Of a DNA stretch of 51,068 nucleotides, positions 442 through 41,673 are shown piece after piece. The notes beneath the pieces are model-generated. The model worked only from the letters and a program-made list of their open reading frames with translations. It was not told the DNA's origin and did no database searches. The first letter of the stretch is position 1. Each line of letters begins with the position of its first letter. The translations under genes and the position numbers were made by a program. Source of the stretch: Bacteroidota bacterium (GTDB lineage: Bacteria > Bacteroidota > Bacteroidia > UBA8524). The stretch spans positions 1 to 51,068 of the forward strand of contig WGMZ01000048.1 in NCBI GenBank assembly GCA_016124735.1. Reading direction: 5' to 3'.

Positions 442-3300
442 CTAGACAACAACGTTCACGATGCGCCCCTTCACGAAGATGAACTTCTTCAGCGGTTTGC
501 CTTCCATCCACTTCTGGACGATATCGTTCGCCATGATGAGGGCTTGCGCTTCATCGGGGTTCATGTCTAAGGCCATCTCGATGGTGGTTCTGGTTTTGCC
601 GTTGATGGAAATCGGATAGGCAAAGGAGTTCTCTACCAGGTAAGATTCGTCATGGGTAGGGAAAGTCTGCTCGGTGACGGAGAAGGCATTGCCCATTTTG
701 CTCCATAACTCTTCGGCGATATGCGGGGCAAAAGGAGAGAGGATCACCGATAAAGGTTCCAGCACTTCTCTTTTATGGCATTTCATCTGGCCCAATTCGT
801 TGACGGCAATCATAAAGGTGGAAACGGACGTGTTGAACGAGAAGTTCTCAATATCCTCCTTCACCTTCTTGATGGTTTTGTGCAGGGTCTTGAGTTCGTC
901 TTTGGTTGCGGCATCATCTACCACTAAAGATTCGCCGTTTTCGCCTATATAGAGTTTCCAGAGTTTTCCTAAGAAACGGTATACGCCTTCGATACCATTG
1001 GTGTTCCAGGGTTTGGCCATTTCGATCGGACCCAGGAACATCTCGTACATGCGCAAGGTATCGGCGCCGTATTTATTGCAGATATCGTCCGGGTTCACCA
1101 CATTGTACCAGCGCTTCGACATTTTTTCCACTTCACGGGCTACCTGGAAGCTTTTGCCTTCCTGGATAAATTCACCGCCCTTTTCAAAATGGAAGGAGTG
1201 CTTAAAGCTTTCAACATCCAGCTCGTAATCGCCTTTTACCAGATTGATGTCAATGCGCTCTTCGATAATATGATTCACGGATACATTCTGTACCCCGTGC
1301 TTTTCAAACTCTGCCTGTAAAAAGGCAGGAATCTCATCTTTCTTCTTCCACTCGGCGGCAAGCTCATTTGAGATATATAAGGTATATTTTTCCAACAAAG
1401 GCACCTTGTTCACTACTGCAGAATAACCTTGTATCATCCCCTGGTTGATCAGCTTCTTGAAAGGCTCATCTACCGGAACCAATCCGAGGTCGTACAAAAA
1501 CTTCATCCAGAAACGGGCATACAACAAATGTCCCGTGGCATGTTCGGAACCGCCAACATACAAATCCACATTTTGCCAATAGTTCAGCGCGTCTTTGCTG
1601 GCAAATGAAGTGTTATTTTTCGGGTCCATATAGCGCAGGAAATACCAGCTGCTACCTGCCCAACCGGGCATGGTGGTGGTTTCGTATTTCCAGTCTTTAG
1701 CCCGGGCGAGGGGAGGATCTCCATCTTCGGTTGGCAGGAACTTATCAATCTCAGGCAATACCAAAGGCAGCTCTTCCCGCATTGGATATGGGAGTCCATT
1801 ATTGTATTCCACCGGAATCGGTTCGCCCCAATACCTTTGGCGGCCAAAGATGGCATCTCGGAGGCGGTAGTTGGTCTTCCCTTTTCCGAGTCCTTTTTCT
1901 TCGATTGCTTTGATCGCGGCCTTCACCGCAGCCTTCACTTCAAGTCCGTTCAGGAAATCCGAGTTGATGGCTTTTCCTTCCTTGGCGTCGTACGAGTCTT
2001 CCTGGATATCCACGGCCACGTTTCCTTCCACCACCTGGGTGATCTCAATCCCAAAATGTTTGGCAAAAGCATGGTCGCGGCTATCGTGACCCGGCACGGC
2101 CATCACGGCTCCGGTACCATAGCCTGCCAGCACATAATCGCCTACCCAGATCGGTACTTTTTTTCCGGTAAACGGATGGATAGCATAGGCCCCGGTAAAT
2201 TCTCCGGAGATATGTTTTACATCCGACATCCTTTCGCGCTCGGTGCGGTTTTTCGCTTTTTCGACGTATTCGCTCACAATGCTGCGGTGTTCGGCGGGGG
2301 TAATATCGGCCACTAATGGATGCTCCGGTGCAAGTGTCAAAAATGTGACCCCGAAAATGGTATCCGGACGTGTAGTAAACACTTCAATCTTCTCCTGGCT
2401 TCCATCGATGCTAAACTCTATTGAGCAACCTTCGGATTTTCCAATCCAGTTGCGTTGGGTCTCTTTGATGGATGCCGACCAGTCGATACGTTCCAATCCT
2501 TCCAGCAAACGCTCGGAATAGGCAGTGATGCGCAAACTCCATTGCTTCATCTTCTTCCGCTCCACAGGATGTCCGCCGCGCTCGGAAACGCCGTCTTTCA
2601 CCTCCTCATTGGCGAGCACGGTACCCAAAGCCGGACACCAGTTCACAAAGGTTTCGCTGAGGTAAGCCAGTCGGAAGTTAAGCAGAAACTCTTCTTTCTT
2701 TGCGGCACTAAAATTCTTCCATTCGGCCGCTGTAAATGCAGGAATTTCAATTTCGAATCCACCTGTCAGGGCCTCATCTTCATTTCCTTTGTATCCTTCC
2801 ATCTCCAATTGAGCAATCAATGTGTTGATGGCTTCGGCTTTTTTGTTTGCCGGATTGTACCAGCTATCGAACAATTGCAAAAAGATCCATTGGGTCCATT
2901 TGTAGTAGTTGGGGTCGCAGGTTTGTACCTCGCGATCCCAGTCGAAACTGAAGCCGATTTTATCCAGCTGCTCGCGGTATCGGGCAATATTTTCTTTGGT
3001 AGTGACGGCCGGATGCTGTCCGGTTTGAATGGCATATTGTTCTGCCGGTAACCCAAATGCATCGTATCCCATCGGATGCAGAACATTGAATCCCTGCAGT
3101 CTTTTGTATCTGGAATAAATGTCTGAAGCAATGTAGCCCAGTGGATGCCCCACGTGCAGACCCGCTCCTGAAGGGTAAGGAAACATGTCGAGCACATAGA
3201 ACTTCTGTTTATCAGATTGGTCCCTGGCAGCGTTTACTTTCTTTGCTGCCCATTCGTCTTGCCATTTTTTCTCAAAAGATGCCGGATCGTAGTTTGCCAT
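442..3300 (-). CDS. leuS: Leucyl-tRNA synthetase
   Basis: This 952-residue class I aminoacyl-tRNA synthetase charges tRNA-Leu in the cytoplasm. The HIGH-type motif HVGH is at residues 49-52. The KMSKR signature that binds ATP lies near residue 726. The CP1 editing domain is in the middle, with the motif GTGAVMAVPGHDSRD. The protein is longer than the E. coli enzyme (about 860 residues); two extra stretches are visible, near residues 140-200 and 640-700, and such insertions are common in Bacteroidota LeuRS. A TTG codon three codons upstream (3309) is in frame, but the ATG at 3300 giving MANYDPASF is the better start. No clear Shine-Dalgarno precedes it. It is transcribed divergently from ftsX, 86 bp away. 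Identification is very secure. Confidence 0.98.
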   Translation of the reverse strand: MANYDPASFEKKWQDEWAAKKVNAARDQSDKQKFYVLDMFPYPSGAGLHVGHPLGYIASDIYSRYKRLQGFNVLHPMGYDAFGLPAEQYAIQTGQHPAVTTKENIARYREQLDKIGFSFDWDREVQTCDPNYYKWTQWIFLQLFDSWYNPANKKAEAINTLIAQLEMEGYKGNEDEALTGGFEIEIPAFTAAEWKNFSAAKKEEFLLNFRLAYLSETFVNWCPALGTVLANEEVKDGVSERGGHPVERKKMKQWSLRITAYSERLLEGLERIDWSASIKETQRNWIGKSEGCSIEFSIDGSQEKIEVFTTRPDTIFGVTFLTLAPEHPLVADITPAEHRSIVSEYVEKAKNRTERERMSDVKHISGEFTGAYAIHPFTGKKVPIWVGDYVLAGYGTGAVMAVPGHDSRDHAFAKHFGIEITQVVEGNVAVDIQEDSYDAKEGKAINSDFLNGLEVKAAVKAAIKAIEEKGLGKGKTNYRLRDAIFGRQRYWGEPIPVEYNNGLPYPMREELPLVLPEIDKFLPTEDGDPPLARAKDWKYETTTMPGWAGSSWYFLRYMDPKNNTSFASKDALNYWQNVDLYVGGSEHATGHLLYARFWMKFLYDLGLVPVDEPFKKLINQGMIQGYSAVVNKVPLLEKYTLYISNELAAEWKKKDEIPAFLQAEFEKHGVQNVSVNHIIEERIDINLVKGDYELDVESFKHSFHFEKGGEFIQEGKSFQVAREVEKMSKRWYNVVNPDDICNKYGADTLRMYEMFLGPIEMAKPWNTNGIEGVYRFLGKLWKLYIGENGESLVVDDAATKDELKTLHKTIKKVKEDIENFSFNTSVSTFMIAVNELGQMKCHKREVLEPLSVILSPFAPHIAEELWSKMGNAFSVTEQTFPTHDESYLVENSFAYPISINGKTRTTIEMALDMNPDEAQALIMANDIVQKWMEGKPLKKFIFVKGRIVNVVV

Positions 3301-3386
3301 GGAAATCAATTTCAGCCTGCGAATTTAAGCAAAGGAAGCCATGATGGCGAATGTGTAAATAATGGCTATTTTCGCAAGCAAGAGCC
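3301..3386. promoter_or_regulatory. Divergent leuS/ftsX promoter region
   Basis: This 86-bp gap must carry promoters for both divergent genes. Near-matches to the Bacteroidota -7 box TAnnTTTG are TTCCTTTG on the minus strand (3337-3330) for leuS and TATTTTCG on the plus strand (3367-3374) for ftsX. No convincing -33 TTTG box lies at the usual spacing for either. Confidence 0.3.
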
Positions 3387-4244
3387 ATGAAAAATACCCG
3401 ACGCAGACATCCCTCTTCTTTAGCATCCATTCTGAGTATTGCATCCGTTTTGGTAATGTTGGGTTTGTTTCTGAGTGTATTGCTCTTCGGACAAAAGATG
3501 GAAAGCCGCTTGCGCGAACATGTATCTTTGGTGGTCCTTTTTCATCTGGATACGGATGAAGCAAAGATTCTGGATTTGAAGAAGCAGCTGGAGCTGGATG
3601 ATGAAATCAAAGACATTTCCTATTTCTCCAGTGATGAAGGTTTGATGGAGATGACCCAGGACTTGAACCAGGATATTTTGGGAGCATTGGAATTCAACCC
3701 GATTCCTGCCGCCCTGGAAATTCATCTGAAATCGGATTATGCCAACCAGGTGAACCTGGCCAGACTGAAACAGGAATTGAGCAAAAATATCCTAGTGAGA
3801 GAAGTGACCTATCAAAGTGGTATTCTCGAGCAGATTGAAGCCAATGCGCATAAAGTATTACTGGGCATTGCGGCTCTGGGAGTCCTGTTTACGCTAATTG
3901 CCATCACCTTGATCAATAGCACCATTCGTTTGGAATTGTATTCTCAACGATTTATCATTCGAAGCATGCAGCTGGTAGGTGCCAAGCCTTGGTTTATTTT
4001 GCGCCCTTTCCTCGGCAAAGGCTTGCGGATGTCCATCTGGGCTGTACTGATAGCGGTTCCGATTCTTGCCGGTATTGCTTACCTGGCCATGGTATTCGCT
4101 CCGGATTTAAACGGAATGCTGAGCATGCAGGAACAGATTATTCTTGCGGGACTGATATTCCTTTTTGGCGTTTTATTAACGACGATTAGCAGCTATCTTG
4201 CAACCCGCAAGTATTTAAGACTTAAATTAGAAGAACTTTACTGA
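3387..4244 (+). CDS. ftsX: Cell division ABC transporter permease FtsX
   Basis: This 285-residue inner-membrane protein partners the ATPase FtsE and regulates septal peptidoglycan hydrolases. The layout is typical: a short basic cytoplasmic N-terminus, TM1 at about 12-35, a periplasmic domain at about 40-150, then TM segments at about 157-178, 214-236 and 251-270. The stretch IRSMQLVGAKPWFILRPF before TM3 matches the conserved FtsX motif. No ftsE is in the window; in Bacteroidota the two genes are often apart. It opens a tight plus-strand group: the DUF3098 gene starts 2 bp after its stop and uppP follows. The ATG at 3387 fits the expected basic N-terminus. Confidence 0.93.
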   Translation: MKNTRRRHPSSLASILSIASVLVMLGLFLSVLLFGQKMESRLREHVSLVVLFHLDTDEAKILDLKKQLELDDEIKDISYFSSDEGLMEMTQDLNQDILGALEFNPIPAALEIHLKSDYANQVNLARLKQELSKNILVREVTYQSGILEQIEANAHKVLLGIAALGVLFTLIAITLINSTIRLELYSQRFIIRSMQLVGAKPWFILRPFLGKGLRMSIWAVLIAVPILAGIAYLAMVFAPDLNGMLSMQEQIILAGLIFLFGVLLTTISSYLATRKYLRLKLEELY

Positions 4245-4246
4245 TT

Positions 4247-4486
4247 ATGAGTAAGATAAACCCAACTCAAGCTTCCCGAAAGGAAGATCACGGAGGTACG
4301 ACCCTGTTGTTTGGCCGTGTCAATTATTTGCTAATGCTGGCTGCCATTCTCTTTATTGTGGTGGGCTTCGCCCTAATGAGTGGTTCAGAGGATATTTTCT
4401 CGACTACTAAAATCACCGTGGCGCCCATTATGGTATTGATCGGATTCGTTATTGGTGTCTTTTCCATTTTTTACAAGAAGAAGTAA
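4247..4486 (+). CDS. Small DUF3098 family membrane protein
   Basis: This is a 79-residue protein with two predicted membrane segments (about 26-45 and 57-75), a short polar N-terminus and a basic C-terminus (YKKK). It matches the DUF3098 family, which I know as a small Bacteroidota protein encoded between ftsX and uppP. That is exactly its place here, 2 bp after ftsX and 3 bp before uppP. Its function is unknown; the context suggests a role linked to cell division or undecaprenyl-phosphate recycling at the inner membrane, which is inference. Family assignment rests on size, topology and position. Confidence 0.8.
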   Translation: MSKINPTQASRKEDHGGTTLLFGRVNYLLMLAAILFIVVGFALMSGSEDIFSTTKITVAPIMVLIGFVIGVFSIFYKKK

Positions 4487-5955: not shown

Positions 5956-6881
5956 AAGTTTACCGAAATCTCGAGGAATTTCAACGTTTACCATTTGCCG
6001 TGGTTACCCAAGGCACTTTTGATGGGGTCCATCTTGGCCATCAGAAAATCCTGAATCAAATCAAAGCACTGGCCAACGAAAACAACGGGGAAACTGTATT
6101 AATTACTTTCTTTCCGCATCCCCGAATGGTTCTTCAACCAGAAGATAATGGGCTGAAATTGCTGGAAACCATCGAAGAGAAAATCAATCATCTTGAAAGG
6201 ATGGGGATTAATCATCTTTTAATTTTGCCCTTTACCAAATCATTTTCCCGTCTGACTGCCCAGGAATTTGTACGCGATATTCTGGTGGAAGGGATCGGAA
6301 CAAAAATTATGGTAGTGGGTTACGACCACCGTTTTGGCAAGAACAGGGAAGGCTCATTTCAGGAATTGAAGCAACTCTCTTCAGTCTATAATTTTGAAGT
6401 TCAGGAGATCGCAGCAGAAGATATTGACGCAGTAACCATTAGCTCCACGAAAATTCGAAATGCGTTATTGTCTGGAGACCTTGTTTCGGCCAATACTTTT
6501 CTGGGCTACGATTACAGGGCGAAAGGAGAGGTGATACGCGGACATCAGAAAGGCAAGACACTTGGCTTTCCAACAGCCAATATTCAGGTGGCACCATACA
6601 AGTTAATTCCCGGCGATGGAGTGTATGCGGTGGAAGTGGTTTTCAACGGCCGACGATATCGTGGCATGACAAATATTGGGTCGCAGCCAACATTTACAGG
6701 AAGAGCCCATGCATTTGAAGTGAATATTTTCGATTTCGACCAGGAAATTTATAATCAGGAGATTGAGGTCATCTTTCATGCTCACCTTCGTCCGGAGATT
6801 AAATTTGATTCGGTAGACGCACTTAAAAGACAATTGGAAAAGGATAAATTTGCTGCCCTCAACGTATTGTTGGGACATTAA
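5952..6881 (+). CDS. ribF: Bifunctional riboflavin kinase/FAD synthetase
   Basis: This 309-residue enzyme phosphorylates riboflavin to FMN and adenylylates FMN to FAD. The N-terminal nucleotidyltransferase half has GTFDGVHLGH at residues 21-30 (the HxGH ATP site) and a later ISSTKIRNALLSGD motif. The C-terminal kinase half, from about residue 185, has KTLGFPTANI near 202. The start is the ATG that overlaps the truB stop; the frame is open further upstream, but the overlap and the family N-terminus support 5952. It is the last gene of the ftsX-uppP-truB-ribF group before the peptidase gene, 14 bp downstream. Confidence 0.97.
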   Translation: MKVYRNLEEFQRLPFAVVTQGTFDGVHLGHQKILNQIKALANENNGETVLITFFPHPRMVLQPEDNGLKLLETIEEKINHLERMGINHLLILPFTKSFSRLTAQEFVRDILVEGIGTKIMVVGYDHRFGKNREGSFQELKQLSSVYNFEVQEIAAEDIDAVTISSTKIRNALLSGDLVSANTFLGYDYRAKGEVIRGHQKGKTLGFPTANIQVAPYKLIPGDGVYAVEVVFNGRRYRGMTNIGSQPTFTGRAHAFEVNIFDFDQEIYNQEIEVIFHAHLRPEIKFDSVDALKRQLEKDKFAALNVLLGH

Positions 6882-33359: not shown

Positions 33360-33385
33360 GGCCGGATTCGTATCCGGCCTTTTTT
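33360..33385 (+). terminator. Rho-independent terminator after lolA
   Basis: GGCCGGAT and ATCCGGCC form an 8-bp perfect stem around TCGT, followed by six T residues. It separates ftsK-lolA from the T9SS cassette. Confidence 0.9.
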
Positions 33386-33495
33386 ATACTCAATTTCCCT
33401 CTAAAACCCTTATATTTCAGGCCTCAACGCTGAATTTGAAGCTGATTAAAAGTCAGGGAAATTACTTGGCGTAAGAATTGGTCAAGCAATATAGA

Positions 33496-36400
33496 ATGAA
33501 AAAACTGTTTCTGGTTTTAGGGGGACTATTCTTCTGGATTCAGTCGCTCCAGGCTCAAAATCTAAACATGGGCGGAGTGGTGAATGAATATACCCAGGTG
33601 TTAGACATTATTACCAATTGCCGCATCAAGGTAAGGGATCCGCAGAAATATTCTGTGGGGCAACAGGTACTCATCATCCAGATGAAAGGAGCCGGTGTAA
33701 ACAAAACCAATACCTCTTCTTTTGGCGATATTACTGCGCTTGGTCCGGCCGGGCTATTTGAATTCAATTACATCGACAGCATTTTTGGCGATACCATCGA
33801 CTTGGTCTACATGCTGAAAAGTCCGGATTACAATGTCAATACCAAACTTCAGATGATTAGTGTTCCTACCGCTGATGTGTTCAATATTACTGGCACTTTA
33901 ACCGGAAATGTTTGGAACGACACCACTGGAGGCGTGGTGGTTATAGAAGCCAGAGATTCCATTATCATGGCGGCAGATGTTAGTGCAAATTCTTTGGGAT
34001 TCAAAGGAGGGGTTCGGTCTTCTCCCAACTATACCTGTGCAGTGATGGACTATTCCTTTGGATTGTACAATAAGCCCTATAATGGGGGCTACAAAGGAGA
34101 GAGTTTTGTAATGGTGGATGGAAACCATATTACCGGTCGTGGTCCATGGGCCACAGGCGGTGGCGGTGGAAACAATCACAATACGGGAGGCGGTGGCGGT
34201 GGAAATATTTCCGCAGGCGGACATGGAGGAAAACAAGCTTTTGTAAATTCAGGTACTCAGGGATGTAACGACACGACCACGGCGAACGGAGGGATTGGCG
34301 GAAAGCCCTTTGATTATAGCTCAAACAAAAACCGGGTATTCCTTGGCGGCGGGGGCGGGGGTGGTCACCAAAATGACCTGCCTTCTGCGGGAGGTGGTGA
34401 AGCAGGCACCGGTGGTCATGGTGGAGGTATTGTTATACTTGTTGCTCCTGTTATCAGTTCATACAATCGGACTATTTTTGCAAATGGAGAGAGTCAGGAT
34501 TCCATTGCCGGACGAGATGGTGGCGGTGGAGGTGGTGGAGGCGGCTCCATTCTTTTGTTTACCAATCAAATCAACGGAACCCTGAATATTCAGGCAAGAG
34601 GAGGGAAAGGTGCAGACAATAATTCGCATAACAGCCTGGCATACAATCTGGCGGCAACCCACGGTACGGGTGGTGGCGGTGGCGGTGGATACATTGGATA
34701 TTCCTCAAACACTCCGCTCTCTAATATCCATGCCGATGTTCGGGGAGGTCTCAATGGAAAGATACTGAATTCAGGTTCGAATAATTATGGAGGCTCTTAT
34801 GGAGCAACTGCAGGTGGCGATGGAGATTCGGTGTTTGGTTTGGTTTTGCCCCGGGGAAATGGATTTTGCAAACCAACAGTAATTATTGCCTACCCGGATC
34901 AGAGCAGAGTCACGAAGAATACCCCTAAAATTGTCAAAGTAAAACAAAACGACCTCTACAACAGAAATGTTCGCATCAGCATCTGTAAAGGTGCACAAAA
35001 TGGATTTCCACTGGTTCAGAATTTTGATTCGGTAAAATATACACCCAATACCGGTTTTGTTGGTAAAGACAGCTTTATGTATTGCATGTGCACGTTGCTT
35101 CAGCCTCCTGCCTGCGATACGGCCTGGGTATATTTGGATATAACGGAGGTGCAGGTGAAAGCTATTGACGACTCAAAACTTACCTATTACGAAACACCGG
35201 TTAAAATAGATGTTCTCGCTAATGACTCAGTCAACGTGCCTGTTTCAGCCAGCTTGCAAAACCCGCCACTCTATGGTTCTGCTTCCTGGAACGGAAGCAC
35301 CTTCGACTATATGCCTCCCTTTGGTTTTATAGGATACGATAGTTTTACCTATATCATCTGCTCTTCAACTTCGCCTGTTGTTTGTGATACCGCATCTGTG
35401 GTAGTCAATGTGATCATGGCTGTTTCTTTGAAGGACGATTATGCAGATGTGCAGATGAACAAAGGAACATTCATCTATCCAAAGAAAAATGATATAGTGA
35501 ATATACCGGCTGTTTTATCTGTTTACGAGCCGCCTAAACATGGAACCTATGTAGTTCAAAACGGCGACAGCATATTTTATACGCCCGATTTTAACTTCTT
35601 TGGGTACGATACCATTAAATACCAGGTATGCGGATACAATCCAATCACCATTTGTGATTCGGCGACCATTTTTATTCGGGTAGTGCCTCAGGTTATCGCA
35701 ACCGACGATTATTACAACCTCTTTATCAACCGCAGCAAGCGCAGCAAGGTATTGAGTAACGATACTGTTTTTGGCTCGTATTCCACTACCATTCTTAGCT
35801 TTCCAAAGGTCGGAACGGCCGTAATGCAAGGCGATAGTATTTTCTATCAATCCGGACTTTATTATAAAGGAAAAGATAGCCTGGAATATCTGGTATGTTC
35901 CAATCTCATTCCGGGTTATTGCGATACGGCAAAAGTTTACTACACCACCAGTAATTCAATTAAAACCAATGATGATGTCGGAACCACACTGGAGGATATT
36001 CCATTGAGTATTTTCGTAACACAGAATGATATCGCTCAAGAAGCAGCTCAGGTGGTGGTGATGGTTAATCCGCGGAGAGGAAGTGCCTCGGTTATTTCCA
36101 ATGATAGTATTCATTATGTTCCAAATCCGGATTACAATGGGATGGATTCAATCCGTTACGGATTATGCACCATTGAAAAACCGAGCATTTGTGATACTTC
36201 CTGGGTAAGAATTACCATCATTCCGCAAAATGATCCACCCGTGGCGGCCTTTGATACTGCGACCACCTTTGTAAATCGTGCAAAAACTATTGATGTATTG
36301 GCCAATGACCACGATCCGGACAATGATCCCATGACAGTTTATTTGCTGGATCAGCCATTGCATGGAATGGTTTCTCTGGAAAATAACAAAGTGATTTATA

Positions 36401-36783
36401 CGCCTAAGGTCAATTATATCGGGCAGGATCGGTTCCGTTATGCAGCATGCGACAATGCACAGCCTCCTCTTTGCGACTCAACCGACGTGTTTGTAACCAT
36501 TGTTGAGCGAACCGAACTCATCATTCAAGAGGCTTTATCGCCAAACATGGACGGTATCAATGATCAATGGAAAGTGGTCAATATTGACCTTACCAATGAA
36601 AACGAAATATTTATCATGAATCGTTGGGGCAGCGTCGTTTGGCAAACCAAGAATTATAAAAATGATTGGACGGGTGTCAATCAGGATGGACAACCACTTC
36701 CTGAAGGGACTTATTTCTATGTGATAAAAGTGCCGGAAGAGGGAAGGGTGTATAAAGGATTTATAGTGATTCAAAGGGATTAA
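33496..36783 (+). CDS. T9SS-secreted adhesin-like protein, type B sorting domain
   Basis: This 1095-residue protein is exported and then secreted or displayed by the type IX system. It has a signal peptide (about 1-21, ending SLQAQ), an N-terminal domain (about 22-210), a glycine-rich region (about 215-402) with many GGGG runs, six tandem Ig/cadherin-like modules (about 464-1005), and a C-terminal gliding-motility-type sorting domain (about 1006-1095; ALSPNMDGINDQWKV, then MNRWGSVVWQTKNYKNDW). Each module opens with a V-x-x-N-D element (for example VLANDHDP) and closes with C-x7-C-D-[TS], a likely disulfide. Three modules also contain GYD or GKDS turns. The start is the ATG at 33496; a TTG six codons upstream is less likely. 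Its secretion partners follow at once. Confidence 0.88.
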   Translation: MKKLFLVLGGLFFWIQSLQAQNLNMGGVVNEYTQVLDIITNCRIKVRDPQKYSVGQQVLIIQMKGAGVNKTNTSSFGDITALGPAGLFEFNYIDSIFGDTIDLVYMLKSPDYNVNTKLQMISVPTADVFNITGTLTGNVWNDTTGGVVVIEARDSIIMAADVSANSLGFKGGVRSSPNYTCAVMDYSFGLYNKPYNGGYKGESFVMVDGNHITGRGPWATGGGGGNNHNTGGGGGGNISAGGHGGKQAFVNSGTQGCNDTTTANGGIGGKPFDYSSNKNRVFLGGGGGGGHQNDLPSAGGGEAGTGGHGGGIVILVAPVISSYNRTIFANGESQDSIAGRDGGGGGGGGGSILLFTNQINGTLNIQARGGKGADNNSHNSLAYNLAATHGTGGGGGGGYIGYSSNTPLSNIHADVRGGLNGKILNSGSNNYGGSYGATAGGDGDSVFGLVLPRGNGFCKPTVIIAYPDQSRVTKNTPKIVKVKQNDLYNRNVRISICKGAQNGFPLVQNFDSVKYTPNTGFVGKDSFMYCMCTLLQPPACDTAWVYLDITEVQVKAIDDSKLTYYETPVKIDVLANDSVNVPVSASLQNPPLYGSASWNGSTFDYMPPFGFIGYDSFTYIICSSTSPVVCDTASVVVNVIMAVSLKDDYADVQMNKGTFIYPKKNDIVNIPAVLSVYEPPKHGTYVVQNGDSIFYTPDFNFFGYDTIKYQVCGYNPITICDSATIFIRVVPQVIATDDYYNLFINRSKRSKVLSNDTVFGSYSTTILSFPKVGTAVMQGDSIFYQSGLYYKGKDSLEYLVCSNLIPGYCDTAKVYYTTSNSIKTNDDVGTTLEDIPLSIFVTQNDIAQEAAQVVVMVNPRRGSASVISNDSIHYVPNPDYNGMDSIRYGLCTIEKPSICDTSWVRITIIPQNDPPVAAFDTATTFVNRAKTIDVLANDHDPDNDPMTVYLLDQPLHGMVSLENNKVIYTPKVNYIGQDRFRYAACDNAQPPLCDSTDVFVTIVERTELIIQEALSPNMDGINDQWKVVNIDLTNENEIFIMNRWGSVVWQTKNYKNDWTGVNQDGQPLPEGTYFYVIKVPEEGRVYKGFIVIQRD

Positions 36784-36784
36784 G

Positions 36785-37690
36785 ATGAAGAAGTTACTCT
36801 GGATCATAGCAGGATTGTTTGCAGCAAGTCCATCGTTTGCCCAGCAGGATCCGATGTACAGTCAGTATCTGTATAATATGCTGACTGTGAATCCGGCCTA
36901 TGCTGGAAGTCATGAGCAACTAAGCACAGTATTGTTTTATCGGAATCAATGGACTGGCTTTAAAGGAGCTCCGGTTACGACCAATATTTCGGTACACTCT
37001 CCCTTCAAAAACACCAATGGAGCGTGGGGTATCAACGCATTTAACGACCGTATTGGTGTTCAGAAGCAGGATTATTTGAATCTGAATTATGCCTACCGTA
37101 TCATTAGTTCGAAAGGGACTTTGAGTTTAGGTATGAGTGCCGGAGTCTATCAGTTTTCCAATAACTACAATGAATTGCAAATGGGTCAGGGCGATCCATT
37201 ATTTTCAGGTAATGAGACCTATAAACTTTTCAATTTTGGTTTTGGGGCTTATTACAAAACAAGCAAAATGGCATTAGGGATATCCGTGCCCCATTTTCTG
37301 AACCGGGCCATGGTAAATCGAATGGCATATAAGGCAGTGAATCCTGCAGACCATCTTTATCTGACTGGATCCTACCTCATCTTCTTAAGCGACGACTATG
37401 TATTCAAGCCCTCGGCTATGATACGTTATGTGAACAATGCACCCATGCAGATGGATTTGAATGCCACCATCATCTACAAAAATTCACTCTATATGGGAAT
37501 ATCTTATCGTACCATCAATGAGGCCAGTTTGATGGTGCAATATCAGCTGAATAAGAACTGGTGGTTTGGCTACGCATACGATGTACCCTTTGGCGTGGTG
37601 AAAAGTATATCGCGCGGCAGCCATGAAATATTCCTGGGATTTGATATCTCTTTTGATAAAACAAAAATGTTGAGCCCCCGCTATTTCTAG
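36785..37690 (+). CDS. PorP/SprF family T9SS membrane protein
   Basis: This 301-residue outer-membrane protein is of the PorP/SprF family. It has a signal peptide (about 1-19, ending SFAQ) and the family opening QQDPMYSQYLYNMLTVNPAYAG split by the cleavage site, then NQWTGFKGAPVTTNI and GINAFNDRIG. The rest alternates as barrel strands to a terminal aromatic (YF). PorP/SprF proteins are known partners for secretion and anchoring of type B substrates, and this one begins 1 bp after its probable client's stop codon. The next gene also begins 1 bp after its stop, so the three are one cassette. Confidence 0.95.
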   Translation: MKKLLWIIAGLFAASPSFAQQDPMYSQYLYNMLTVNPAYAGSHEQLSTVLFYRNQWTGFKGAPVTTNISVHSPFKNTNGAWGINAFNDRIGVQKQDYLNLNYAYRIISSKGTLSLGMSAGVYQFSNNYNELQMGQGDPLFSGNETYKLFNFGFGAYYKTSKMALGISVPHFLNRAMVNRMAYKAVNPADHLYLTGSYLIFLSDDYVFKPSAMIRYVNNAPMQMDLNATIIYKNSLYMGISYRTINEASLMVQYQLNKNWWFGYAYDVPFGVVKSISRGSHEIFLGFDISFDKTKMLSPRYF

Positions 37691-37691
37691 T

Positions 37692-39812
37692 ATGAGAAAC
37701 CTATTAACCGGAATTCTATTTTTAATCTGTGTATTGTCACAGGCCCAGGATAAGCAATTTGAGCGGGGAGAGAAGCTATACAAACAGCTCAAATATGCAG
37801 AAGCAATTCCTTATCTGGAAAAGGCGTACAATCTTAATAATAATGGGGATGCGTTGGAAATGCTGGCCTATTCTTATCTGAAGATGAAGAATTTTCAGAA
37901 AGCATCGGTGTATTTCAGAACACTTGCATTTAACAGAAAGGCCAATCCGAAGTTCTTTTTGGAATACGGCAAGCTTTTAAAAAATCAGGGCTATTATGCG
38001 GATGCAAAACCCTGGTTCATACAATACCTGCGCACGGATCCGGGGAATATGGAAGTACGACAGCTACTCCATTCCTGCGATATGGCACCTGAATTACTGG
38101 AAAATCCATTGGGTTTCGGAGTCACTGCCTGGAAATACAATTCGCCTCAAATGGAATTCTCACCAACTCCTTATCATGGCGGATGGATAATAGCCAGCAA
38201 CCGGAGCAATGCTACGGACATGAATCCTTATGGGTGGGATAATCTTCCTTATCTTAAACTTATGTTCGTTACGGATAGTACCGAGCCTGAAAATTTTTCA
38301 CATCGACTCACCGACCGCTTCCATAATGGACCAGCTGCAGTTACCCAGGACGGTAAGCGCATTTATATTACGCGAAATATGCAGGAGAAGGGGCGTGTAT
38401 TAACCGATGATAAAGGGGTGGCACGACTGATGATTGTTTATTCGGATTTTGAAAATGGAAAATGGACGAAACCTCGTCCCGTTAACTTTAACTCCAGAGA
38501 ATATTCAGTTGGACATCCTTGCCTTTCAGCGGATGGAAATATCATGTATTTTACCTCGGACATGCCCGGAGGAGAAGGAGGTAGTGATATCTGGATGGTG
38601 CATAAGATTTCAGAAACGGAATGGTCCTCACCGGAAAATTTGGGAAGAAGAATCAATACACCCGGAGAAGAGTTGTTCCCGACTTTATTTGCTGATACTT
38701 TGTTGACCTTTTCATCCGACTATCATCCCGGTCTTGGTGGTTTGGATTTGTTCTTTTCGGTGAAATCCAATAAAGGATGGTCTTTTCCAAAAAACCTTGG
38801 CTATCCGGTAAATAGCTTTTACGATGATTTTGGAATGGTATACAATCCGGATGGTAGTTCAGGTTTTCTGGCATCGAACCGTGCAGGAGGATCTGGCTTC
38901 GATGACCTGTATACTTTCAAGAAAATCAAGGTATGTCTGAGTTTTACTGTGATGGACAGTATGACCTATGACTTACTCCCCAAAGCGGTAGTTCGTATTA
39001 CCAATGGTTTTCAGTATACGGAGGAAGTTATGACCGGTGCGGATGGAAAGATTCACCTGTGTTTGCCAATTGATAATAACTTTAAAATTACCACTGAACG
39101 CAAAGGCTATTTACCTAAACGTTACAACTTCTCCAGCAAGGGTTTGATTGCCGATAAAGACACGCAAATGCTCGCCGAGCTTGTGAAAGGAAACCTGCTC
39201 AATTTTAGCGGCCTGGTTCGCAATGATGAAACCAGTGCTTTGCTTGAAGGAGCTTTGTTAACTATTACGGGTCCGAATGGTTTCAAAGAAATAACCTCTT
39301 CGAATCAGGTGGGGTATTTTGATTTGGCTGTAGACCCCAATGTCACGTACGAACTGGTGGCGTCTAAAGCCGGATTTCTCACCCATAAAGAGAAGTTTGT
39401 AATGTCGGATTCGACTCCGATCAAAGAGTTCCGCTTAAGACCAAGTGAGATCAATCAAAAGATTAAAATTCAGAATATCTATTATGATCTGAACAGCTCG
39501 GATATTCGTGCTGATGCAAAGCCCGTTCTGGATACATTGGTGAAAATAATGCGTGACAATCCTTATCTGCAGGTTGAACTGGGATCTCATACGGATTCAC
39601 GTGCAAGCGATGATTACAATGAAAAACTTAGTCTGGCTCGGGCGAAGGCAGTCATTGCTTACCTGTCTTCCAAGAGGATAGATCCTTACCGGATTACCTA
39701 CCATTATTATGGTGAGACACAGTTGTTAAAACCTTGTCCTGACGGGGTAGAATGCAATGAAGAAGATCACCAGATGAACCGCCGTACGGAGTTCAGAATT
39801 ATTGCTTATTAG
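37692..39812 (+). CDS. PorE-like OmpA-family protein (TPR, PD40, OmpA)
   Basis: This 706-residue protein is predicted to be periplasmic or outer-membrane associated. In order: a signal peptide (about 1-18, ending SQAQ), two or three TPR units (about 20-115; KQLKYAEAIPYLEKAY), a PD40/WD40-type propeller (about 145-405; repeats such as HPCLSADGNIMYFTSDMPGG and FPTLFADTLLTFSSDYHPG), two carboxypeptidase-regulatory-like beta domains (about 410-590), and an OmpA C-terminal domain (about 595-706; GSHTDSRASDDYNEKLSLAR with the peptidoglycan-binding Asp and Arg). This order is that of PorE, a T9SS component that ties the machine to peptidoglycan. No lipobox is seen. Its 3' end overlaps a minus-strand gene by 14 bp. 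Confidence 0.9.
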   Translation: MRNLLTGILFLICVLSQAQDKQFERGEKLYKQLKYAEAIPYLEKAYNLNNNGDALEMLAYSYLKMKNFQKASVYFRTLAFNRKANPKFFLEYGKLLKNQGYYADAKPWFIQYLRTDPGNMEVRQLLHSCDMAPELLENPLGFGVTAWKYNSPQMEFSPTPYHGGWIIASNRSNATDMNPYGWDNLPYLKLMFVTDSTEPENFSHRLTDRFHNGPAAVTQDGKRIYITRNMQEKGRVLTDDKGVARLMIVYSDFENGKWTKPRPVNFNSREYSVGHPCLSADGNIMYFTSDMPGGEGGSDIWMVHKISETEWSSPENLGRRINTPGEELFPTLFADTLLTFSSDYHPGLGGLDLFFSVKSNKGWSFPKNLGYPVNSFYDDFGMVYNPDGSSGFLASNRAGGSGFDDLYTFKKIKVCLSFTVMDSMTYDLLPKAVVRITNGFQYTEEVMTGADGKIHLCLPIDNNFKITTERKGYLPKRYNFSSKGLIADKDTQMLAELVKGNLLNFSGLVRNDETSALLEGALLTITGPNGFKEITSSNQVGYFDLAVDPNVTYELVASKAGFLTHKEKFVMSDSTPIKEFRLRPSEINQKIKIQNIYYDLNSSDIRADAKPVLDTLVKIMRDNPYLQVELGSHTDSRASDDYNEKLSLARAKAVIAYLSSKRIDPYRITYHYYGETQLLKPCPDGVECNEEDHQMNRRTEFRIIAY

Positions 39813-40271: not shown

Positions 40272-41135
40272 TTATAAAGAACCAAAGACCACCATTTTTT
40301 CCAGCGTCGGACTTGGAGATCCGCCTTTCTTTTCGATGGTAATGGCAAATGCCTGTGAGCTGGCAACATTTTTAAGCTTATAGGCTCCTCCGTCCTGGAA
40401 ATCCATTGGAATCATTCCTGCATCTTTCGGTTGTCCATTGTCGAGTGCCCACAGCTGGTATTGTTCGTCTTCACCTAAAGCAGGGAGTTCATTCGTAACA
40501 AGATAGACATCTCCTTTTTGTTTATCCCAAAAAACCATGGCTTCCAGATCAGGATATGCTTCGGTGCCTAAAAGGTTAGCGGCTTTGAGGTTTTTATCGC
40601 TCAGGAAAGCATATTCCTGTTGCATGATTTCGTAACTGGACTTAATAATTCCATTTTCATCGCTCAATAACATATTGTTGTTCCTGAGCACTGCTGCTTC
40701 TTCTTCTGCAGAGACCATTCGATGGTAGTAGCGGTAATTTAATCCGGCACTGGCCATAAATAAAACAAGGGAAGCTGCCGCAATCCACTGCCACTTTCTG
40801 GAATGCATTTCCACTACTTTTGGCTCCGGCATTGAAGGAATAGCGGCCTCCGTTGATTTTTCTGTCTTTGTCTCACTCGTTAAAGGATTCTTTGGACTCA
40901 TTTCATCCTGAATCTCGTTTAGCTTATCCAATAAGGATGCTTTGACAGATGCGGGTACTTCGGTACTTTGTTCTACAGCAAGGTGGTCCAATGCATCGCA
41001 AATTTCATTGTATTCCTTGCGAACCTGTTCGTCGTTGCGCAAGGCTTCCTCTACTCTCAGAGATTCTTCCTCGGAGCATAATCCCAGGGCATAAAGTTCC
41101 AGGATGCCGGATTGTATGAGGTTCTTGCTACTCAA
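40272..41135 (-). CDS. Anti-sigma factor (RskA-like)
   Basis: This 287-residue membrane protein probably holds the sigma factor encoded just upstream. An N-terminal cytoplasmic zone (about 1-60; SGILELYALGLCSEEESLRVEEAL) resembles the anti-sigma-K helical domain without a zinc-binding HxxxCxxC motif. A single TM lies near 112-132, then a coiled segment, then a periplasmic RskA domain (about 195-287; AYPDLEAMVFWDKQKGDVYL, LPALGEDEQYQLWALDNG). The start is TTG at 41135, inside the last codons of the sigma gene (8-bp overlap), because the sequence read from it gives the family N-terminus at once. Such overlap keeps the pair in fixed ratio. The inducing signal is unknown. Confidence 0.87.
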   Translation of the reverse strand: MSSKNLIQSGILELYALGLCSEEESLRVEEALRNDEQVRKEYNEICDALDHLAVEQSTEVPASVKASLLDKLNEIQDEMSPKNPLTSETKTEKSTEAAIPSMPEPKVVEMHSRKWQWIAAASLVLFMASAGLNYRYYHRMVSAEEEAAVLRNNNMLLSDENGIIKSSYEIMQQEYAFLSDKNLKAANLLGTEAYPDLEAMVFWDKQKGDVYLVTNELPALGEDEQYQLWALDNGQPKDAGMIPMDFQDGGAYKLKNVASSQAFAITIEKKGGSPSPTLEKMVVFGSL

Positions 41136-41673
41136 CTTTTAATACTTTTCTTAGTTCTATAATACTTGCTCGGAGTCTTGTTTTCACAGTTCCCAAAGGT
41201 ATGCTCAGTTCTTTGGCTGCTTCATCGTGGGTATATCCACCGAAGTAAACCAATTCCAGAAGCATTTTCTGTTCAGGTCTGAGTCGTTCAATCACGCTTT
41301 TTAGCCCGATACTATCCACTTTCAGCTCTGTGTTATTTCCTTTATCTACCTCATATACGGAATCTTCAATGTTTTGGTTTTCCTTTTGATTGCGAAATTT
41401 TTTACTGCGAATTTCATCAATGGTTCGGTTTCTGGCAATGTTCATTATCCAGGTTGACAAGCGAGCTTTAGACTCATCGTAGTTCTTGATATTATTCCAC
41501 ACTTTAAGGAATACATCCTGAACAATTTCCTGGGCAGTTTCCTCGTCCCGAATCATCTTTAAAATAACCCCGTACACCATGCCTGAATAGGCATCGTATA
41601 ATTTTTCCAATGCTTGTTTGTCTCCGTTTCGGAGTTGGTCGACAAGGGATATACCAGAGCTTGGAGTATTCAA
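41128..41673 (-). CDS. RNA polymerase ECF-type sigma factor (SigK-like)
   Basis: This 181-residue alternative sigma factor has region 2 at about 22-95 (ALEKLYDAYSGMVYGVIL, then ETAQEIVQDVFLKVW and ARLSTWIMNIARNRTIDEIR, which melt and read the -10 region) and region 4 at about 125-178 (EQKMLLELVYFGGYTHDEAA, then LGTVKTRLR, which reads the -35). Pairing with an RskA-type anti-sigma fits the SigK group. The start codon is TTG at 41673. It comes 3 nt after the pepP stop (TGA-TAT-TTG) and in the same frame as pepP, so no other upstream start is possible and readthrough of the TGA would fuse the two proteins. Confidence 0.9.
   Translation of the reverse strand: MNTPSSGISLVDQLRNGDKQALEKLYDAYSGMVYGVILKMIRDEETAQEIVQDVFLKVWNNIKNYDESKARLSTWIMNIARNRTIDEIRSKKFRNQKENQNIEDSVYEVDKGNNTELKVDSIGLKSVIERLRPEQKMLLELVYFGGYTHDEAAKELSIPLGTVKTRLRASIIELRKVLKVE

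Follow-up and report, generated by a model that had tools for sequence, protein, structure and literature searches.

A three-gene cluster from a Bacteroidota bacterium encoding a very probable type B surface adhesin with cysteine-paired Ig-like modules and an AgmC_N-like head

Type B adhesins and their outer membrane partners

Excerpts from three papers describe the systems closest to the locus considered here. In Porphyromonas gingivalis, PG1035 forms a complex with PorP and PorE, the last of which combines TPR, beta-propeller, carboxypeptidase-regulatory-like, and OmpA domains (PMC9143113). Type B cargo of the type IX secretion system (T9SS) in Flavobacterium depends on a cognate PorP/SprF protein, commonly encoded downstream, and one type B C-terminal domain that was tested gave rise to static foci (PMC12618676). 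SprF is tied to the gliding track via a C-x-C tail, which is required for continuous movement (PMC12635249). The present locus is a three-gene cluster within a 51,068-nucleotide stretch of DNA (the window: contig WGMZ01000048.1 of assembly GCA_016124735.1, positions 1 to 51,068 of the forward strand) from a Bacteroidota bacterium of lineage UBA8524. Its first gene, at 33496..36783 on the + strand, encodes a protein of 1095 residues, P0001. Gene calling, Pfam and NCBIfam profiles, and the translation make it very probable that this protein is a T9SS type B surface adhesin.

Cargo, holder, and anchor encoded side by side

The open reading frame (ORF) of P0001 extends from 33478 to 36783, with the ATG at 33496 as the better start. 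A probable Sec signal peptide (residues 1–20; 33496..33555), assigned by reading the translation rather than by a predictor, precedes an N-terminal domain containing glycine tracts (approximately residues 26–411; 33571..34731). Residues 26–411 match positions 41–403 of the 412 in NF047640, the AgmC N-terminal model, at 152.8 bits (1.3e-44), the equivalog cut-off being 275; AgmC we take to be the Myxococcus adventurous gliding protein. Six immunoglobulin (Ig)-like modules follow, and the protein ends in a T9SS type B sorting domain (36523..36777) matched above cut-off by both CHU_C (91.5 bits, cut-off 27; 3.7e-26) and TIGR04131 (58.8 bits, cut-off 35; 4.4e-16). Profiles and translation thus bear out the combination of glycine-rich region and type B sorting domain on which the original prediction of a stiff, disulfide-braced surface fibre or adhesin was built. 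The surface adhesin is very probable; stiffness is a property that the disulfides would be expected to confer.

A single base pair separates P0001 from the second gene (36785..37690, + strand), which encodes a PorP/SprF family outer membrane shuttle of 301 residues (TIGR03519, 3e-73; PF11751, 2.4e-69). P0001 therefore has the feature looked for in type B cargo, a PorP/SprF-family gene directly downstream. This shuttle ends in SPRYF and has no cysteine at all, and so no C-x-C tail. After another gap of 1 bp comes a PorE/CHU_0125-like protein (37692..39812, + strand), in which Pfam recognises TPR, PD40, CarboxypepD_reg, and OmpA in the order known from PorE; it matches NF052230 (7.4e-108) and NF053607 (1.7e-116), each below its curated cut-off, and is probably a peptidoglycan anchor. 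The order of the three genes is kept in a relative from the same genus (L013). The genome holds four PorP/SprF genes and 29 matches to type B tails, of which 26 pass the cut-off (one of these only together with its neighbours). It also encodes FGE-domain lipoproteins of GldJ-like and GldK-like type, adjacent to PorP genes; a T9SS is therefore very likely present, on the evidence of this gene content.

The reading we favour, with a probability of roughly 60%, is that the three genes encode the cargo, the holder, and the anchor of a static type B adhesin complex. Sec and, in a second step, the T9SS would export P0001, whereupon its type B C-terminal domain would dock on the neighbouring PorP/SprF-like barrel, which the PorE-like protein would in turn tie to peptidoglycan. 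Because P0001 would be held at the membrane by its C-terminal tail, the AgmC_N-like domain should sit at the far end, as a head in contact with the target surface, and the Ig-like modules would be the stalk. An Ig domain is about 4 nm long, which would give the stalk of six Big_9-type modules a length of roughly 25 nm. Within each module, a disulfide would clamp the mouth of the last beta-hairpin (strands F and G), holding the strand that leads to the next module; the clamp would stiffen the chain and, under tension on the fibre, prevent the hairpin from peeling.

A fixed, wall-anchored fibre is favoured because of the P. gingivalis complex, the static precedent for a type B domain, and the lack of a C-x-C tail in the shuttle encoded here. 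The PG1035-PorP-PorE system likewise consists of a type B cargo, a PorP barrel, and a PorE-type anchor; in the window, however, the three genes form one tight cluster, the cargo has an Ig stalk, and the PorE-like protein falls below the PorE cut-off. SprB-SprF of Flavobacterium johnsoniae shares the type B cargo and the SprF-family gene immediately downstream (PMC12618676, in excerpt), but the SprF-family protein of the window lacks the C-x-C tail reported in the excerpted text of PMC12635249. In another member of the genus (L015), a 110-residue ORF at 5992-6324 has an adhesin-like start and a PorE-like C terminus and is flanked on both sides by ORFs that, by eye, resemble the window's own neighbours. 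From its sequence, this looks like a single deletion of the whole three-gene cluster. In the window, where the genes for all three components lie next to one another, the cluster would be handy for studying how type B adhesins stay in place.

Several points weigh against the static complex. Neither named family matches the PorE-like protein at its curated cut-off (361.5 bits against 600 for NF052230), and a C-x-C motif is also missing from the genome's three further PorP/SprF proteins, which makes its absence weak evidence for stasis. The apparent loss in L015 could be a mis-assembly in a fragmented metagenome-assembled genome (MAG). In the AlphaFold model of residues 459–1095 (13 sequences; mean predicted local distance difference test, pLDDT, 80.9; predicted template modelling score, pTM, 0.39), the arrangement of the modules is uncertain, the T9SS tail is modelled without confidence, and the repeats in the alignment that fed the model are visibly misaligned.

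A gliding-motility adhesin resembling SprB, with a PorP/SprF protein that travels on the GldJ/K/N track as the head tugs at the substrate, is unlikely. The N-terminal domain does match a family named for a gliding protein, and the GldJ-like and GldK-like lipoproteins do stand beside PorP genes. The neighbouring PorP protein, however, has no cysteine, whereas SprF needs its C-x-C for the bond with the track (PMC12635249, in excerpt); the third gene is PorE-like and probably encodes a peptidoglycan anchor; and the best GldJ match reaches 365.6 bits, below the family cut-off of 458.2. Because P0001 matches the AgmC model below its own cut-off, and because the domain is also present in viral contigs, it is no marker of gliding. 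Elsewhere (L144, contig 34 of G000), two adjacent PorP/SprF genes at 1142-2236 and 2337-3332 encode two cysteines 13–14 residues apart near the C terminus and adjoin a gene for a GldJ-like lipoprotein; their products are candidate track-linked partners. We likewise give little credence to a surface-layer, matrix, or carbohydrate-binding scaffold in place of an adhesin for a specific partner, and the Ig-like folds of P0001 are too general to decide this.

A cysteine pair at the mouth of a beta-hairpin

Each of the six modules carries one C-x7-C-D-[ST] motif. Module 1 (34882..35148) has CTLLQPPACDT, with cysteines at residues 532 and 540 (codons at 35089 and 35113); module 2 (35152..35418) has CSSTSPVVCDT at 622 and 630 (35359 and 35383); and module 3 (35422..35688) has CGYNPITICDS at 712 and 720 (35629 and 35653). 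CSNLIPGYCDT of module 4 (35689..35955) lies at 801 and 809 (35896 and 35920), CTIEKPSICDT of module 5 (35959..36225) at 891 and 899 (36166 and 36190), and CDNAQPPLCDS of module 6 (36238..36507) at 985 and 993 (36448 and 36472), all on the + strand. Successive motifs are 90, 90, 89, 90, and 94 residues apart. Against the six observed, 20,000 composition shuffles of P0001 gave a mean of 0.0032 motifs and a maximum of one. The modules align to module 1 at 28%–33% identity, with both cysteines and the aspartate among the invariant columns and six different loops. All motifs are thus exactly as originally quoted, and the count of six tandem modules is right, although Pfam lists Big_9 in only five stretches; module 6 is the best Big_9 match of the genome.

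The original prediction knew of no described family with this combination, which does not hold for the modules: they are Big_9 (PF17963; 167 bits, cut-off 23.6, 1.8e-49) and tandem-95 (NF012211; 111.8 bits, cut-off 90, 1.2e-32) modules, both above the curated cut-offs. The invariance of the spacing holds within P0001 and breaks down beyond it. A homologue from the same genus, 67% identical, keeps x7 in five modules and has CDNQGMCDS, a C-x5-C, in module 6, and loops in other Bacteroidota modules range from five to nine residues (x5, x7, x8, and x9). Hand-corrected counts are 30 for x7 and seven for x9, two of nine x9 entries being C-x-C-x7-C read from the first cysteine; two x3 entries resemble other motifs. 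These other spacings rule out an exact C-x7-C-D as a family signature. In a Saprospiraceae MAG (L014, 2755-10686), an open frame of 2644 residues contains 22 cysteine-pair motifs in which loops of 5, 7, 8, and 9 residues are mixed.

What recurs is the pair. Among 228 distinct, mainly Bacteroidota modules, with a tolerance of two to three columns around the modelled position when scoring a cysteine, 68 have both cysteines, 151 neither, and three the first only, while six gapped modules stand outside the pair counts. Once the Saprospiraceae MAG and the modules of the window and the rest of its genus are set aside, the figures become 29, 151, and two, with five gapped. By hand count, the pair occurs in 13 of 45 other genomes with fetched Big_9 loci (the same genus and MAG excluded). 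Since a locus was included for matching either Big_9 or the modules found in the window, the counts are no unbiased census; duplicates were collapsed in the 228-module and loop-length sets and left uncollapsed in the plasmid set. This last set comprises 109 modules from 12 non-Bacteroidota plasmid loci selected for their resemblance to module 6; of these modules, seven have both cysteines, 100 neither, none a single one, and two are gapped (again outside the pair counts). All seven pairs sit on one Vibrio parahaemolyticus plasmid (L132, gene 443-4297), in seven of its eight modules, with listed loops of five residues; a pair confined to Bacteroidota is thereby ruled out. Two Bacteroidota plasmids from the same search have the pair in 3/3 modules (Aureispira) and in 0/3 (Persicobacter). 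Unlike those of P0001, then, most of the Big_9 modules covered here lack the cysteines, which goes halfway towards undoing the original prediction, and a scattered subset keeps the pair.

Every module of the AlphaFold model, an Ig/cadherin-like beta-sandwich, contains two long strands joined by a six-residue turn. In all six, the first strand has the first cysteine as its last residue but one, and the second strand begins with the second cysteine, which puts the pair across the mouth of a beta-hairpin. In model numbering, the cysteines are at 74/82, 164/172, 254/262, 343/351, 433/441, and 527/535, and the strands at 65-75/82-92, 155-165/172-182, and 245-255/262-272 in modules 1–3 and at 334-344/351-361, 424-434/441-451, and 518-528/535-545 in modules 4–6. 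Confidence (pLDDT) is 79–94 in the blocks of modules 2–6, 60–90 in module 1, and below 50 in the T9SS tail.

An intramolecular disulfide that clamps the hairpin mouth of each module—a recurrent variant of an old module—is likely, because the pair is nearly all-or-none and because of where the model places it; the structural disulfide originally proposed for each module thus gains in credibility. Such a bond predicts that the two cysteines are gained or lost jointly while their spacing drifts, as is observed. That the cysteines would instead bind metal or link neighbouring fibres through intermolecular disulfides is quite improbable: spare cysteines that could cross-link are present in module 1 (497 and 530) and in the N-terminal part (42, 181, 257, and 458), but a nearly both-or-neither pair, loops of five to nine residues, and a position at the hairpin mouth best fit an intramolecular cross-strand bond. 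The two extra cysteines of module 1 (codons at 34984 and 35083) might form a second disulfide there. The first module of the same-genus homologue likewise has two extra cysteines (in ICTPP and YCIC).

As a simple mechanical hypothesis, the clamp would account for a cysteine signature that looks exact and is found repeatedly in surface proteins of Bacteroidota. The open-licence papers listed, covered mostly at the level of titles and the starts of abstracts, yielded no account of a cysteine pair in tandem-95 or Big_9 modules, nor of the hairpin pair as a recurrent variant.

By fold, the best Foldseek matches of the module model are cadherin-type chains (E 6e-20, with a template modelling score, TM, of 0.23 over the whole chain). 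The closest match to a single module is residues 70–157 of the phage Milano collar protein gp13 (Z 12.2; root-mean-square deviation, rmsd, 1.6 over 85 residues; 18% identity), followed by three fragments of grappling hook protein A (GhpA; Z 9.1–9.5, rmsd 15–16 over 308–313 residues, spanning several domains) and many cadherins (Z about 9). These are common Ig-like folds, and the matches say nothing about function. The disulfide network of phage Milano was considered as a possible link and dropped, because the collar disulfides listed in the excerpt of PMC10491603 are in another (W) domain. By sequence, GhpA of Aureispira sp. CCB-QB1 (PDB 9flp and other entries) is the sole match of the module profile in the PDB at E up to 0.1. 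The match is weak (E 0.018) and covers residues 5721–5808, which contain YQLCNPNCPAIYCDTA, with the two cysteine columns aligned and C-D-T-A present. GhpA differs from P0001 in its length of 5898 residues, its loop of eight, and a third cysteine inside that loop, and the sequence match is limited to one module. A search of open-licence papers for the grappling hook brought up only work on a different topic. A stretch of phage C48C1 (residues 827–986) resembles modules 5 and 6 at 29.3% identity (E 2e-6).

An AgmC_N-like head domain

Module, tail, holder, and anchor are all of known kinds, and no new family is involved; P0001 is a well-built, largely explicable surface adhesin whose head is the least understood part. 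On profile score, the head is a relative of the AgmC N-terminal domain and not AgmC itself: it falls below the equivalog cut-off and continues into Ig modules and a T9SS tail. Residues 21–180, which are glycine-poor, and residues 181–470 match NF047640 separately (3.6e-15 and 1.2e-20), and the match of the former alone rules out glycine composition as the sole source of the similarity. A model of 450 residues from residue 21 onwards, built from 28 sequences, has a mean pLDDT of 88.9 and a pTM of 0.90. The glycine-rich stalk of the original prediction is therefore not a stalk but part of a folded N-terminal domain of a recognisable family. No literature on AgmC was found among open-licence papers.

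The domain occurs in 15 of 118 Bacteroidota genomes, the present one included, with no match over the model cut-off. Ten relatives were scanned over their whole length. Additional domains above cut-off were Kelch (L075), PKD (L078 and L088), Ig_7 (L078), and a HYDIN-type Ig (L079); none of the other six has an additional domain above cut-off apart from T9SS tails. Seven of the ten have a T9SS tail, of type A or B, with L075 having one only below the Pfam cut-off. The breadth of this head was not found described in the open-licence literature covered.

Glycine occupies sixty alignment columns in at least 80% of the 28 sequences. Across residues 165–400, the 49 glycine columns have a mean entropy of 0.17 bits against 2.30 bits for the other 187; the glycine columns were selected for glycine and hence have low entropy, so that only their alternation with variable segments is informative. 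Several of the glycine tracts are modelled confidently, as neither helix nor strand.

Pfam returned no match for the head of the window protein at E up to 10, and for 28 members of the domain, at the same limit, four unrelated families in one member each (E 0.01–0.22). The best Foldseek match of the head has E 9e-4 and a TM of 0.15. VIA gave a GH110 protein as its best match (Z 9.7, rmsd 2.1 over only 72 residues), followed by many beta-barrel subdomains. There is thus no convincing solved relative by sequence or by fold, which is no proof of a new fold. The glycine-rich domain of human ALK/LTK, considered as a possible analogue, found no support in the Pfam scan or in a literature search.

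Viral proteins carry the domain as well. A scan of viral sequences with the glycine-poor part gave three loci (L127, L128, and L129), of which two were examined; both contigs encode the domain in proteins of approximately 1200 residues (L127, 5138-8740; L129, 5515-9108), each matching NF047640 at 4e-29. In the L129 protein it is accompanied by a choice-of-anchor R domain. A scan with the alignment of the full domain, whose search patterns are almost all glycine, returned 600 viral stretches, none of which was confirmed. Predicted proteins from a Bathycoccus virus (E 1.7e-17; rmsd 8.0; TM 0.58 by query) and, less strongly, from an Ostreococcus virus (E 8.7e-13; TM 0.36) also match the head model. 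In addition, phrog_13336, a PHROG without assigned function, touches residues 313–417 of the searched stretch (1e-7).

The excerpted account of gp38, the tail-fibre tip of phages S16 and PP01 (PMC12892980), invites comparison with a head in which conserved glycine tracts alternate with variable segments. The protein is not among the sequence or fold matches shown for the head, which excludes nothing, and the likeness is one of resemblance only. A tentative, rather doubtful proposal is that the AgmC_N-like domain is a mobile recognition head with a core of glycine tracts, borne on bacterial T9SS fibres with Ig, PKD, Kelch, or HYDIN-type stalks, used also by viruses of bacteria and algae, and working like the poly-glycine II tips of the gp38 type through a rigid core and variable loops that select the target. 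If so, the protein of the window would be a complete anchored example, with head, disulfide-clamped stalk, barrel, and wall anchor. Whatever its role, the head recurs across the phylum and in viral proteins, and since Pfam does not match it here and none of the solved structures is a convincing relative, its structure would be informative well beyond this genome.

Surroundings of the cluster

Upstream of the cluster, a terminator-like hairpin with a T run, read by eye, lies 3′ of the preceding gene (33360..33385, + strand) and suggests that the adhesin begins its own transcription unit. The promoter and terminator scan of the window does not include this hairpin and is uninformative, with totals close to the shuffled means (20 against 16.2 expected and 7 against 5.6 expected). 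Downstream of the cluster, on the minus strand at 40272-41673, are ORFs that, on an impression of their sequences, resemble an anti-sigma factor and an extracytoplasmic function (ECF) sigma factor.

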